Made by a program: the position numbers and the translations under genes. The notes below the pieces were generated by a model. The model saw nothing but the letters and a program-made list of their open reading frames with translations, was not told the DNA's origin and did no database searches. From Onthophagus taurus (Eukaryota > Arthropoda > Insecta > Coleoptera > Scarabaeidae): 64,000 nt of DNA. The stretch spans positions 16,995,501 through 17,059,500 of the forward strand of contig NC_091966.1 in NCBI RefSeq assembly GCF_036711975.1, in the 5' to 3' direction. This document shows positions 45,217-51,790 of this stretch, piece after piece (position 1 is the first letter of the stretch; every line of letters starts with the position of its first letter).

Positions 45217-45563
45217 AATATTGACGAACAATATCTCATTCGAAAGCTTAACTCTTGGCCAATACGAAATGTCCGATTTGAAACCACTTTTGAATTCCGC
45301 TAAAACGCCAAAATATTGCGAAAGCATACGAAAATAGTACAAAAATTATCTTTTTTTTTAGATGGTCGTTTTTTTAGACTCGGAAATGATATACTCGATT
45401 GTAAACAACAAGATGTAAAACCACAATTATCGAACTTTCACCTTTTTAAATTTTTCTGGATATTTATGTATCTGAGAGTAAAAGTGCATAGTAGCAATAA
45501 TGAAAAGAATGAAGTTTGCTACAAGTTTTATACTAAAACTTTTTCTCTAAAATGTTCCGACTC

Positions 45564-46520
45564 CGAGTGCGGGAAGTTAGACCCCATTTTTTGATTTTTA
45601 AATTTTTTATTGTTGTTCTAGATTGTTCTAGAGTTGTTCTACATTGTTGCAAAGCGGCAAATCGAAGAAATAAAAACTCCACGAGAAAACCGAAAAAACA
45701 GGTTTTTTGACTAGCCCCCCATTTTTGGAAAAATCAAATTTTCTTTGTTGTTCTGGGTTGTTCTAGTTGTTCTAGTTATTATTCTAGAAAATCAAAATTA
45801 TGGGATACAGCATTACGAAGTTATAACTAAAAATAGGTTTGGCTGCCGAAATGTCTAGTTGATTGCTGTGACCATAGTTTTTCTATTATCAATTCCATAT
45901 TACAAATATATACTTATTATACCTAAAGCAATCTGGAACAGCTATTATTTTCACTAGAACAACTCTCTAAAGGGCACTTTACTCTTTGAAAATTAAAGTT
46001 TTTCGAAGTTTCAGTCAGTAATTCTTGTGTCAGCGATTTTATATTACACAATAAGAATTAAAAAACATAGAACATAGATTCAAATTGTTCTAGATGTGTT
46101 TTACGTTTAACACGGACATTAATTTTGCAAAATCACATATTTTTTGTTGCTCTAAATTGTTCTTGTTGTTCTAGGTACTTAAAATGTGTATTTAATCACT
46201 GCGGCTTTAGTTCTTTTAAAGTTTCATGTTAAAAATTAGTACTTACAACAATTAAAACAATTCAGAACAGCTGTTATTTTCACTAGAAAAACCTTAAATT
46301 TGAGTTGTGATATCGGACACGTTTTGTTGAATCAGTGAACCCAACCTTTAATATAATAATAGTTTTAAAAAATTAAAAAATATTGAATAATCTGACCATC
46401 TAATTTCCTAAAAATCACCTTTCCCTTTAAACATATAATAATAAAACATAAGTTGCGATTTAAAGTGTATTTTATTTTGTAAAACTAAGTAATAAATTAA
46501 TAAATAAACTAAACTAACAA
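45564..46520. repeat. Left long inverted arm of the large foldback element
   Basis: Rich in ttgttctag motifs. Mirrors 47,885-48,845 over about 950 bp with high similarity by eye (for example gatatcggacacgttttgtt, ttctagatgtgttttacgtt and ggtcacagcaat recur as complements). The end part (about 46,300-46,515) is duplicated directly at 46,530-46,770. Confidence 0.82.
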
Positions 46521-46894
46521 AAGTTGTTTTTCAGTTGTTGTGATATCGGACAGGTTTTGTTGAATTAGTGAACCCAACCTTTACTATAATAATAGTTTTA
46601 AAAAACCAAAAAAATAGAATAATCTGACCATCCTAATTTTCTAAAAATCACAAGTTTCAGCTTTCTCTTTAAACTTATAATAGTAACACATAAGATGCGA
46701 TTTACAGTGTATTTTATTTTGTATAAACTAAGTAATAAATTAATAAATAAACTAAACTAACAAATAAAACAATAACTATTCGATCAGTATTATTATATTA
46801 GTACAATAACTTATTCTAAGGTAAACTATAACTAAATAAACTAAATTATGTAAATAAACTAATATCATGGAATAATACGGTTACATCACTTTGC

Positions 46895-47660
46895 TCATTT
46901 ATAAACATATATCCACATTTGTGCATTTATTTCAATAGCTTTTTCAACTTGTACGGATTTTTTTCGTAAGTCATTAAATAATATCCAATTGGCATTGTAG
47001 GGTACAAATGCCGGGTAGTGTCCTACATTATTTAAAGATTGAGTACCTTCGCAATGGATGATACCTGCGGGGATATAGAATTTGTTGTGGAGTTACAAAT
47101 TGCGTGCGTAATCACTTAATTTTGTTTTATTGTTCTCTCCATTCGTTGTTTCTATAAACAGACCACATTTTTTTGCAATTGTTGCTTAGAGTTTGCATGT
47201 AGTTTTCTATTACTTGCTTTACTTCTATTACTTGCATTACTTGCATAGCCGGGCATAGCCAAATATTGTTACGATGTCAATGTCGATTGGTAAAATTATG
47301 TTTTTATGGAAAGTAACGTTTAAACAATTATTGCAGTTTTTAGTCCTACAATAACAAAATTCTTCTTTAAATAGTTGTGTGCAAAGAAACGCAATATTTG
47401 AAATAGCATTCACTATTATCACGCCAGCAATATTCTGGCTTCCAAAATAATTTATTCCTGTTAACAGTTCAGCTCTTTTTTTATATGTTGCTTTACTAGA
47501 ACTGGTTTTTAAAAATAATTTTAGGAAACTAAAGCTATCTGTGCAAACATTCTCAACATGATTTCTAAATGAATTGTGTGTACGGGCAAATGCTAAACTA
47601 TGAAATATACTGTGGAATCCGCAAGTATTTTGAACAATACATTTTTTATTGAAATAGATA
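46895..47660 (-). pseudogene. Decayed USP-like (C19) cysteine peptidase frame within the foldback element
   Basis: The minus-strand reading begins near 47,660 with a Cys box-like KKCIVQNTCGFHSIFHSLAF (USPs: N-T-C-Y-x-N-S-x-L-Q). It continues through an uncharacterised helical part and a cysteine-rich patch, FCYCRTKNCNNC, and ends with IPAGIIHCEGTQSLNNVGHY, AFVPYNANWILFNDLRKKSV and MWIYVYK. The last part matches the USP His box: H in G-H-Y-x-A-x-V, then W-x-x-F-N-D with the final Asp/Asn, and a terminal hydrophobic Y-V-Y strand. All segments are in one frame. It is interrupted by a 9-bp microsatellite (units like tgcaagtaa) that brings several TAA codons, and by two further TAA stops. No start methionine is evident. 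Role in the element is unknown. About 255 residues is short for a USP domain. Confidence 0.5.
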
Positions 47661-47884
47661 TTAATGAAACTTACTTATGAACTTATGAAAGAATTACTAA
47701 CTGAAACTTCAAAAAATTTTAATTTTCAAAGAGTAAAGTGTTCTTTATAGAGTTGTTCTAGGGAAAATATTAGCTATTCTAGATTGCTTAGGTATAATAA
47801 GTATTTGTGATATGGAACTGAAAATAGAAAAACTATGGTCACAGCAATCAACTAGACATTTTGGCAGCCCAACCTACTTTTGTT

Positions 47885-48845
47885 AGTTTAGTTTATTTAT
47901 TAATTTATTACTTAGTTTTACAAAATAAAATACACTTTAAATCGCAACTTATGTTTTATTATTATAAGTTTAAAGGGAAAGGTGATTTTTAGGAAATTAG
48001 ATGGTCAGATTATTCAATATTTTTTAATTTTTTAAAACTATTATTATATTAAAGGTTGGGTTCACTGATTCAACAAAACGTGTCCGATATCACAACTCAA
48101 ATTTAAGGTTTTTCTAGTGAAAACAACAGCTGTTCTGAATTGTTTTAATTGTTGTAAGTACTAATTTTTAATATGAAACTTTAAAAGAACTAAAGCCGCA
48201 GTGATTAAATAAGCATTTTAAGTACCTAGAACAACAAGAACAATTTAGAGCAACAAAAAATACGTGATTTTGTAAAATTAATGTCCGTGTTAAACGTAAA
48301 ACACATCTAGAACAATTTGAATCGACAAAGTTTGAGTTATTTTAGATTGTTCTATGCTTTTTAATTGTTATTGCGTAATATAAAACCGCTGACACAAGAA
48401 TTACTGACTGAAACTTCCAAAAACTTTAATTTTCAAAGAGTAAAGTGCCCTTTAGAGAGTTGTTTTAGTGAAAATAATAGCTGTTCCAGATTGCGTTATC
48501 TATAATAAGTATATATTTCTAATATGGAATTGATAATAGAAAAACTATGGTCACAGCAATTAACTAGACATTTCGGCGGTCAAACCTATTTTTAGTTATA
48601 ACTTCGTAATGCTGTATCCCATAATTTTGATTTTCTAGAACAATAACTAGAACAACAGAGAAAATTAGATTTTTCCAAAAATGGGGAGATAGTCAAAAAA
48701 CCCGTTTTTTCGGTTTTCTCGCGGAGTTTTTATTTTTTCGATTTGCCGCTTTGGAACAATGTAGAACAACTCTAGAACAATCTAGAACAACAATGAAAAA
48801 TTTAAAAATCAAAAAATGGGGGGCTTACTTCCTGCACTCTCCGAC
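47885..48845. repeat. Right long inverted arm of the large foldback element
   Basis: Inverted partner of 45,564-46,520. A shorter direct copy of part of this arm (like 48,394-48,590) lies at 47,690-47,880, next to the peptidase-like frame, so the arm has been partly duplicated. Confidence 0.82.
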
Positions 48846-48866
48846 TCCAGTAGTCTACCAACTACA

Positions 48867-51790
48867 AGATGTAAAATCACGATTTCATGTAATTTTAACC
48901 TTTCTAAATTTTTCTCAATATTTATGCATCTAAAATCAAAAGTGCAAAGTAGCAATATTGGAAAAAATGAAGTTTGGTACAACTTTTATACTAAAACTGT
49001 TTTTTAAAACTTTCCTACTCTTGTACTCCACCAACTACAAGATGTAAAATCACGATTTCATGTAATTTTAACCTTTCTAAATTTTTTTCGATATTTATGC
49101 ATCTGACAGCAAAAGTGCACAGTAGCAATATTGTTAAGAATAAAGTTTGCTACAACTTTTATACAAAAACTTTTTTCTAAAACGTTCTGAATCCTGTGCT
49201 CTACCAACAACAAGATGTAAAACCACGATTTCATCTAATTCTCACCTTTTAAAATTTTTCTCGATATTTACGCATCTGAGAGCAAAAGTGCAAAGTAGCA
49301 ATAATGAAAAGAATGAAGTTTGATACAACTTTTATACTAAAACTTTTTTCTAAAACGTTCCGACTACAGTACTCTACCAACTACAAGATGTAAAATCACA
49401 ATTTCATGTAATTTTAACCTTTTTAAATTTTTCTCGATGTTCATGCATCTGAGAGCAAAAGGGCAAAGTAGCAGTAATACAAAGAATGAAGTTTGCTACA
49501 ACTTTTATACTAAAACTTTTTTTCTAAAATGTCCCGACTCCAGTACTCTACCAACTACAAGATGTAAAATCACGATTTCATGTAATTTCAACCTTTCTAA
49601 ACTTTTCTCAATATTTATGCATCTAAAACCAAAAGTGCAAAGTAGCAATATTGGAAAGAATGAAGTTTGCTACAACTTTTATACTAAAACTGTTTTTTAA
49701 AACGTTCTTACTCTTGTACTCTACCAACTACAAGATGTAAAATCACGATTTCATGTAATTTTAATCTTTCTAAATTTTTTTCGATATTTATGCATCTGAC
49801 AGCAAAAGTGCACAGTAGCAATATTGTTAAGAATAAAGTTTGCTACAATTTTTATACTAAAACTTTTTTTCTAAAACGTTCTAAATCCTGTTCTCTACCA
49901 ACACTAAGATGTAAAAACACGATTTCATCTAAAACTCACCTTTTAAAATTTTTCTGGATATTTATGCATCTAAGAGCAAAAGTGCAAAGTAGCAATATTG
50001 GAAAGAATGAAGTTTGCTACAACTTTTATACTAAAACTATTTTTTTAAAACGTTGCGACTCCTGTACTCTACCAACTACAAGATGTAAAATCACGATTTC
50101 ATGTAACTTCAACCTTTCTAAATTTTTCTCAATATTTATGCATCTGAGAGCAAAAGTGTAAAGTAGCAATATTGTTAAGAATAAAGTTTACTACAACTTT
50201 TATACAAAAACTTTTTTCTAAAACGTTCTGAATCCTGTGCTCTACCAACAGCAAGATGTAAAACCACGATTTCATCTAATTCTCACCTTTTAAAATTTTT
50301 CTCGATACTTAAGCATCTGAGAGCAAAAGTGCAAAGTAGCAATAATGAAAAGAATGAAGTTTGATACAACTTTTATACTAAAACTTTTTTCTAAAACGTT
50401 CCGACTACAGTACTCTACCAACTACAAGATGTAAAATCACAATTTCATGTAATTTTAACCTTTTTAAATTTTTCTCGATGTTCATGCATCTGAGAGCAAA
50501 AGGGCAAAGTAGCAATATTGGAAAGAATGAAGTTTGCTACAACTTTTATACTAAAACTGTTTTTTAAAACGTTCCTACTCTTGTACTCTACCAACTACAA
50601 GATGTAAAATCACGATTTCATGTAATTTTAATCTTTCTAAATTTTTTTCGATATTTATGCATCTGACAGCAAAAGTGCAAAGTAGCAATATTGTTAAGAA
50701 TAAAGTTTGCTACAATTTTTATACTAAAACTTTTTTTCTAAAACGTTCTGAATCCTGTTCTCTACCAACAATAAGATGTAAAAACACGATTTCATCTAAT
50801 ACTCATCTTTTAAAATTTTTGTCGATATTTATGCATCTAAGAGCAAAAGTGCAAAGTAGCAATATTGGAAAGAATGAAGTTTGCTACAACTTTTTTTCTA
50901 AAATGTTCCGATTCCAGTACTCTACCAAGTACAAGATGTAAAACAACGATTTCATGTAACTTCAACTTTTCTACATTTTTCTCAATATTTATGCATCTGA
51001 GAGCAAAAGTGTAAAGTAGCAATATTGTTAAGAATAAAGTTTACTACAACTTTTATACAAAAACTTTTTTTCTGAAACGTTCTGAATCCTGTGCTCTACC
51101 AACAACAAGATGTAAAACCAGGATTTCATCTAATTCTCACCTTTTAAAATTTTTCTCGATATTTATGCATCTGAGAGCAAAAGTGTAAAGTAGCAATAAT
51201 GAAAAGAATAAAGTTTGCTACAACTTTTTTCTAAAACGTTCCGACTCCAGTACTCTACCAACTACAAGATGTAAAACCACGATTTCATCTAATACTCACC
51301 TTTTAAAATTTTTCTCGATATTTAAGCATCTAAGAGCAAAAGTACAAAGTAGCAATATTGGAAAGAATAAAGTTTTCTACAACTTTTATACTAAAACTTT
51401 TTTTCTAAAACGCCCTGAATCCTGTGCTCTACCAACAACAAGATGTAAAACCACGATTTCATCTAATTCTCACCTTTTTAAATTTTTCTCGATATTTACG
51501 TATCTGAGAGCAAAAGTGCAAAGTTGCTACAACTTTTAACTAAAACTTTTTTTCTAAAACGTTCCGAATCCCGTGAGCAAAAGTGTAAAGAAGCAATATT
51601 GTTAAAAATAAAGTTTGCTACAACTTTTATGATAAAACTTTTTTTTTAAAACGTTCCGGATCCCATGCTCTACCAATAACAAGATGTAAAACCCCGATTT
51701 CATCTAGTTTTCACATATTCGAATTTTTCTCGATATTCATGCATTTGAGAGAGTGAAAGTATAAAAGAGCAATATTTTTAAGTACAAGAT
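48867..51790 (+). repeat. Satellite-like tandem array, about 17 units of about 173 bp
   Basis: The landmark agatgtaaaa occurs near 48,867, 49,040, 49,214, 49,386, 49,560, 49,733 and so on to about 51,682, mostly 170-177 bp apart. Each unit has tctaccaactacaagatgta, acgatttcatgtaattt, tatttatgcatctgagagca, aagtagcaatattg and acaacttttatactaaaac in order. Two or three subtypes alternate (for example caacaacaag versus aactacaag; aatattgttaag versus aataatgaaaag), which suggests higher-order duplication. Last units are shortened. Open frames of 60-123 residues here are by-products of the repeats. Confidence 0.92.

Follow-up and report, generated by a model that had tools for sequence, protein, structure and literature searches.

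Known Systems

Ubiquitin and ubiquitin-like (Ubl) peptidase domains occur in several groups of mobile elements, with Ulp1 recorded in plant MULEs and Ginger1 and with OTU and VTD in Helitrons (PMC2836005, PMC9741609, PMC13317346). The Trichomonas protein XP_001314237.1 combines transposase_11 with Peptidase C19 (PMC2836005). The authors of the Ginger paper suggest a possible role of Ulp1 and OTU domains in repair (PMC2836005); for the VTDs of Helitrons, the suggested role is that they may keep proteins required for transposition from being degraded by the proteasome (PMC9741609).

Tm1 of root-knot nematodes (PMC3169594) and Tetris (PMC4079207) are Mutator/Foldback elements with long composite inverted arms, target duplications of mostly 9 bp, and short copies that lack a transposase. 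The foldback family of the beetle Onthophagus taurus described here resembles them in these respects. Target duplications of MULEs measure 8–11 bp and commonly 9 (table in PMC6446971). Neither ubiquitin nor peptidase is mentioned in the Tm1 paper (PMC3169594), and the main text of a 2019 MULE survey contains no occurrence of ubiquitin, peptidase, or protease. Among the titles and abstracts listed in a literature search of open-access journal papers, none concerns a ubiquitin-specific peptidase (USP) in a foldback or Mutator element.

The Foldback Element in the Window

The window is a 64,000-nucleotide stretch of O. taurus contig NC_091966.1 (positions 16,995,501 to 17,059,500). It contains a foldback element with the following features.

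45556..45564, left 9-bp target-site duplication, TCCGACTCC
45565..48839, whole non-autonomous foldback element, 3,275 bp, with ends common to other copies (blastn, window against 21 loci)
45565..46529, left inverted arm with internal subrepeats (inverted repeat pairs I1-I3)
46895..47674, minus strand, decayed USP-like C-terminal domain frame, 260 codons, aligned (as L001) to the open frame of L029
46970..47023, minus strand, His box, GHYPAFVPYNANWILFND
47162..47173, minus strand, remnant of the second CxxC (KKCG; CKKC in L029 and L049)
47324..47335, minus strand, first CxxC of the finger-type Cys pairs (CNNC; CSHC in L049)
47594..47629, minus strand, Cys box, NTCGFHSIFHSL
47871..48839, right inverted arm (inverted repeat pairs)
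48840..48848, right 9-bp target-site duplication, TCCGACTCC
48840..51524, 173-bp satellite array, 15.6 copies, the insertion target

The inverted arms are about 0.95 kb long, pairs I1-I3 are 95–98% complementary, and 10-bp and 242-bp repeats lie inside or adjoin the left arm. With its long inverted arms and internal subrepeats, the element has the structure that defines foldbacks. Its termini read GAGTGC(G/A)GGAAGT(T/A)AG. The two 9-bp target duplications are perfectly alike, and an exact 9-bp duplication with paired ends is present at 11 of 21 other loci tested; at the remaining 10, one end is absent from the stretch examined or the pair is unmatched. The length in the window and at these 11 loci is that of a MULE-type target duplication. 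One of the 11, L032, is a 309-bp element without the USP-like frame.

About one matching satellite unit lies directly left of the element. When the two flanks are joined with a single copy of the duplication, the resulting 231 bases match the satellite without a break (the five best matches are 89.6–92.6% over 229–231 bases), which identifies the window insertion as a clean transposition event. Two other copies, L031:4403-7544 and L033:3199-6835, contain an extra element end; apparently, one foldback has inserted in, or been rearranged within, another.

The Decayed Frame

A first-pass annotation, made from the sequence alone, had picked out a frame with Cys-box and His-box motifs of a USP inside the element and proposed that the foldback family carries its own deubiquitinase-like gene. 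Both motifs indeed lie in one minus-strand frame, NTCGFHSIFHSL at 47594-47629 and GHYPAFVPYNANWILFND at 46970-47023, and the frame ends in Y-V-Y-K at 46898-46909. The catalytic-type His comes 201 codons after the Cys, in agreement with the spacing of about 200 codons given there, and the cysteine-rich patch noticed between the boxes is real, consisting of CNNC and the KKCG remnant of a second pair. The His in the Cys box (FHS) is present in the window copy but was seen only there, as nearly all other aligned copies read FDS; the exceptions are L039 (FGS), L031 and L032 (no aligned letters at this point), and L045 (a gap).

The frame is not a product of chance, since it recurs across the genome and both boxes stand in open frames in the long relatives L029 and L049. 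The family does, as proposed, code for a USP (C19)-like domain; it lies between foldback arms, with target duplications of 9 bp. The window copy itself is the dead remnant of a foldback DNA transposon and has lost internal sequence. Its 260 codons include nine stops, the last of which is the terminal TGA, leaving eight internal, and it has no working domain. Short foldback copies, the window's among them, lack the transposase part and retain only the C-terminal end. Structure prediction for the window frame, read through its stops as a single sequence with no alignment, gave a mean pLDDT of 32.5.

Relatives in the Genome

The genome searched comprises 290.8 Mb in 33 contigs, and 20 stretches of 9.9 kb were extracted for relatives. 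There are at least 46 DNA matches of the window frame and at least 151 protein matches of the Cys half (from 150 scored candidates), some in each count being pieces of one copy. The relatives amount to dozens of copies at least.

L029 (C3:15252665-15254389) has an open frame of 575 codons with both boxes inside; upstream of it stand another 187 codons in a transposase-like frame. With the 575-codon frame as the query, 76 of the 78 matches listed start at residue 304 or later, the other two being L029 itself and L049; the copies among the matches listed therefore hold only the last ~260 codons. L030 is open through both boxes over 257 codons and has 12- and 16-codon gaps relative to L029, the second of which removes the strand preceding the His box. 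A further domain relative, L054 (C6), of which 436 bases were read, is 24% identical to L049 and retains CxxC, H-Y, A, W, and N-D; no transposase match lies near it among the matches listed. None of 103 pattern-matched stretches in viral contigs encodes a relative by tblastn.

At L029:1608-3991, 457-base inverted repeats, 95% complementary and 1,470 bases apart, lie between two transposase-like gene parts, as if another element had inserted. On a 2.7-Mb contig, 20 places match the Cys half with closely similar scores at steps of ~25-55 kb (C4:1963268-2549893), which looks like tandem amplification or an assembly effect. The copy read from this series, L031, adjoins a DEAH-type helicase gene with ankyrin repeats.

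The Transposase-Like Part

L049 (C7) is a distant relative whose single stop-to-stop frame, 917 codons long, joins a transposase-like part to the peptidase-like part that follows it. Its core contains D240, D310, DxxH at 356-359, and E528, and its domain contains Cys 655, CSHC from 758, CKKC from 802, and GHY at 876-878 followed by YDD. Asp240, Asp310, and Glu528, together with D-x-x-H, form a putative DDE set. In several transposase superfamilies, a C/D-x-x-H motif follows the second Asp. L029 is collinear with L049 in both parts: its 575-codon frame is 26% identical over 587 columns (blastp E=3e-57), and its 187-codon upstream frame is 41% identical to the L049 core (E=3e-36). Since the 917-codon frame of L049 joins both parts, the USP-like domain is the C-terminus of a transposase-like protein. 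The first-pass proposal thus holds for the domain but not for a separate gene. In another place, C8:15602268-15604321, weak matches to the transposase part (E=1.2e-7) and to the domain (E=3.3e-4) stand in the same order on one strand, as judged by position alone.

Neither L049 nor L029 has a Pfam or NCBIfam transposase match. PF10551, the MULE transposase domain, matched neither protein, whole or as the core, and the transposase is not classed as a MULE here. In this respect the protein differs from that of Tm1-A, which encodes FLYWCH and MULE domains (PMC3169594). Matches of the transposase core profile in the PDB (two ribosomal L18 and one haemoglobin) are due to chance.

In having the peptidase domain at the transposase C-terminus, the protein resembles Ginger1 (PMC2836005), but the families named in Ginger1, Helitrons, and plant MULEs are Ulp1, OTU, and VTD, whereas the domain here is of the USP type. 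The Trichomonas protein likewise joins a DNA transposase to a C19 peptidase; it is, however, a protist protein with another transposase domain, and it was compared by description only (PMC2836005).

Homology to Ubiquitin-Specific Peptidases

By homology, as judged from profile comparisons, the His half of the domain is that of a USP (C19). Pfam UCH (PF00443), which has a curated cut-off of 23.9 bits, matches the C-terminal 66 aa of L029 (1.1e-6, 28.8 bits) and its C-terminal 108 aa (7.3e-7, 29.5 bits), reaching the profile end in both cases. Below the cut-off are a 65-aa window piece around the His box (E=0.0054, 16.8 bits) and three pieces of L049 (0.0022, 0.0028, and, for 295 aa, 0.086; 18.1 bits at best). 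The 66- and 108-aa pieces are two of five from the L029 C-terminus, and those of 575, 297, and 196 aa gave no UCH match. Full-length L049, the L030, L033, and L037 frames, and both L054 pieces gave none either. The lack of a match in longer pieces is taken as putative dilution of a short, weak match. A search against Pfam UCH was among the checks that the first-pass annotation had proposed, and its result is above the cut-off in the L029 C-terminal pieces and below it in the window piece. Neither outcome named there as contrary, the absence of any peptidase match or intact homologues with an unrelated fold and without conserved Cys and His, appeared.

The domain could instead be a SUMO peptidase related to USPL1 (Peptidase_C98) and not a ubiquitin peptidase. 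There is a weak Peptidase_C98 match (E=0.056-0.057), the C-x-x-D-x-I of the Cys box resembles the USPL1 Cys box, and Ulp1-type domains are known in plant MULEs, as noted above. However, the same piece that scores 29.5 bits against UCH reaches 13.5 bits against C98, where the cut-off is 27; USPL1 was rejected as a candidate on this score, and the reading is rather unlikely.

A profile of the L029, L049, and L054 C-termini retrieved 26 PDB sequences at E<=10, of which 25 are ubiquitin/Ubl carboxyl-terminal hydrolases, many of these being the same enzyme solved again. The best E was 0.0048, with five near 0.005 and the others at 0.059 or above; the weakest of the 26, YfdQ, is not of the USP class. 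A two-sequence profile of the whole domain gave five PDB matches, all USPs, with a best E of 0.15, none being significant alone.

Profile alignment by hhalign was made against a pair of giant-virus USPs, which are 86% identical to each other and in effect one sequence. The whole-domain profile scored 33.2 (P 4.1e-4, probability only 34.8%), compared with 22.8 for the best of 200 column shuffles and 18.1 for the reversed alignment, and the match takes in everything from the first Cys pair to the His box. The C-terminal profile scored 32.6 (P 1.4e-4, probability only 52.5%), compared with 21.3 and 17.6 for the corresponding controls (again 200 shuffles); its match starts past the second Cys pair and takes in the His box.

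When L029, L049, L054, and one giant-virus USP were aligned with the window frame (stops written as Lys), the invariant columns were a Cys of the second pair, a single Lys, the His, the following Tyr, an Ala, a Trp, an Asp, and the final Tyr; the Cys column is doubtful for the window row, which is decayed. The box G-H-Y...W-x-x-[FY]-[ND]-D is found in L029, L049, and the window, and L054 has S-H-Y and W-x-x-K-N-D.

The PDB match of L049 as a single sequence, tryptophan synthase (E=0.33), is due to chance, and a profile of 10 rows (A1), most without the His half, had no PDB match. Pfam BNR_assoc_N, DUF1428, BTHB, Tuberin, and Zer-1 were below their own cut-offs and not common to the relatives. 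Against the USP reading, none of the 47 places listed when the whole genome was searched with UCH is a copy of the foldback family. A 1,432-codon open frame at C10:6856747-6857004 scored 22.9 bits against UCH over the His half, just under the cut-off; it is a host gene or another element.

Cys Half and Catalytic Residues

The Cys half alone has no Pfam match, and its hhalign P is 0.19. Its putative USP identity is suggested by the conserved Cys, the spacing, and the CxxC pairs. In L029 and L049, the Cys box, two Cys pairs, Y-x-L-x-G-I strand, G-H-Y-x-A, W-x-x-[FY]-[ND]-D, and final Tyr are ordered and spaced as in USPs. Unlike in USPs, the Cys box reads C-[GA]-F-D-S and not C-Y-x-N-S, the Cys half escapes detection by profiles, and the domain is joined to a transposase-like protein.

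The Cys, the CxxC pairs, His-Tyr, Trp, and Asn/Asp stand in USP order. The CxxC pairs are C149/C152 and C193/C196 in L029 (domain numbering), and zinc-finger-type pairs are also present in L049. The distances from the Cys to the first pair, second pair, and His are 96/140/204 in L029 and 103/147/222 in L049; in the giant-virus USP, the distances to the matching Cys groups and the His are 93/129/193, the first group being C-x3-H. The Cys box usually reads N-[TI]-C-G-F-D-S, and L049 has E-T-C-A-F-D-S.

Among 33 copies (L029 included), 31 have the catalytic-type Cys, which is also present in L049, and two have no aligned letter there. The His position is H in 24, Q in seven, and unaligned in two, and the Asn position is N in 29, K in one, a stop in one, and unaligned in two. 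The Gln copies are L041, L042, L043, L046, L047, L020, and L022, and as seven copies share the change, a subfamily without the His residue has spread. A 12-codon gap is found in six of the seven Gln copies, and many His copies have the same gap.

These residues bear on whether the domain is a pseudo-peptidase that keeps the USP fold for ubiquitin binding or architecture, without catalysis. USPs have an oxyanion Asn or Asp five residues before the catalytic Cys, and the residue at this point here is Ile or Val. The departure of the Cys box from N-T-C-Y-x-N-S and the replacement of His by Gln in 7/33 copies also speak for lost catalysis. Against this, the Gln form was seen in short copies, and all but one of these seven have the 12-codon gap that such copies commonly show; L029 and L049, which have the longest frames, retain Cys, His, and Asn/Asp. 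A pseudo-peptidase is an unlikely reading of the domain.

Two further peptidase types were considered and rejected. In Ulp1 enzymes the His precedes the Cys in sequence, whereas the Cys comes first here, and no Ulp1 (C48) family is among the Pfam matches listed. The VTD, a papain-like deubiquitinase known from transposons, occurs in Helitrons, including those of insects, and is characterized by an invariable Asp-x-His and the lack of an aromatic gatekeeper motif (PMC9741609). In the domain here, the His is followed by a Tyr in all of L029, L049, L054, and the window. Asp-x-His occurs in L049 (NDGHY) and is missing from L029 (SDVGHY), L054 (GGISHY), and the window (NVGHY). A VTD or similar deubiquitinase is highly improbable.

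Selection and Decay

Pairwise comparison of L029 with each of 32 copies gave dN/dS values of 0.26-0.55 (highest in L032) at dS of 0.24-0.46; L029 and its relatives thus show fewer protein-changing than silent differences. Because decay of copies after insertion raises dN/dS, these values suggest that the source lineage has been under purifying selection. When L029 and L032 are set aside, the other 31 copies give a ratio of mean pN to mean pS of 0.72, nearer neutral. At least one stop lies among the aligned codons in 20 of the 33 copies, and other copies have gaps. With such stops and lost residues, most short copies probably lack a working domain.

The stops, the gaps, and the pN/pS of 0.72 are what would be expected of passive cargo, a host USP exon captured as in Pack-MULEs and decaying without function. 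This explanation is improbable: the domain is in frame with the transposase-like part in L049 and collinear in L029 at 26% identity, the weak match pair on C8 repeats the order, and Cys, His, and Asn/Asp persist alongside the dN/dS of 0.26-0.55 in the L029 comparisons.

Proposed Function and Meaning

The window element is best explained as a dead foldback copy from a family in which, with good probability, the long relatives would encode a transposase with an active C-terminal USP-type peptidase and the short copies would be moved in trans. The N-terminal part would be the transposase of these elements, and the long protein would cut and paste them through their arms. The C-terminal domain would act as a thiol peptidase that strips ubiquitin or a Ubl from its targets, which may be the transposase itself or host proteins at the cut site. 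As a result, the transposase could escape proteasomal degradation, or repair could be favored; stabilization of the transposase is the simplest option. Short copies, moved in trans by the long form, would not need the peptidase.

A broader and more tentative idea, to which somewhat less than an even chance is given, is that in the distant past an animal (insect) foldback lineage joined an active USP-type peptidase to its transposase and uses it to shield the transposase, or host repair factors at the cut, from ubiquitin control. The fusion would persist in the two divergent families read and, by the position of weak matches, in a third.

Mobile elements with Ulp1, OTU, and VTD domains, and with C19 joined to transposase_11, were already known, and a USP-type domain in a foldback family would be added to them by the present reading of these sequences. 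The domain accounts for a frame within repeats that might go unnamed in gene annotation or be taken for a host USP. Joined to a foldback transposase-like protein, it would be a further, probably independent, case of an element-borne peptidase, and it would lend weight to the view that transposition is generally hindered by ubiquitin control, whether of the transposase or of repair.
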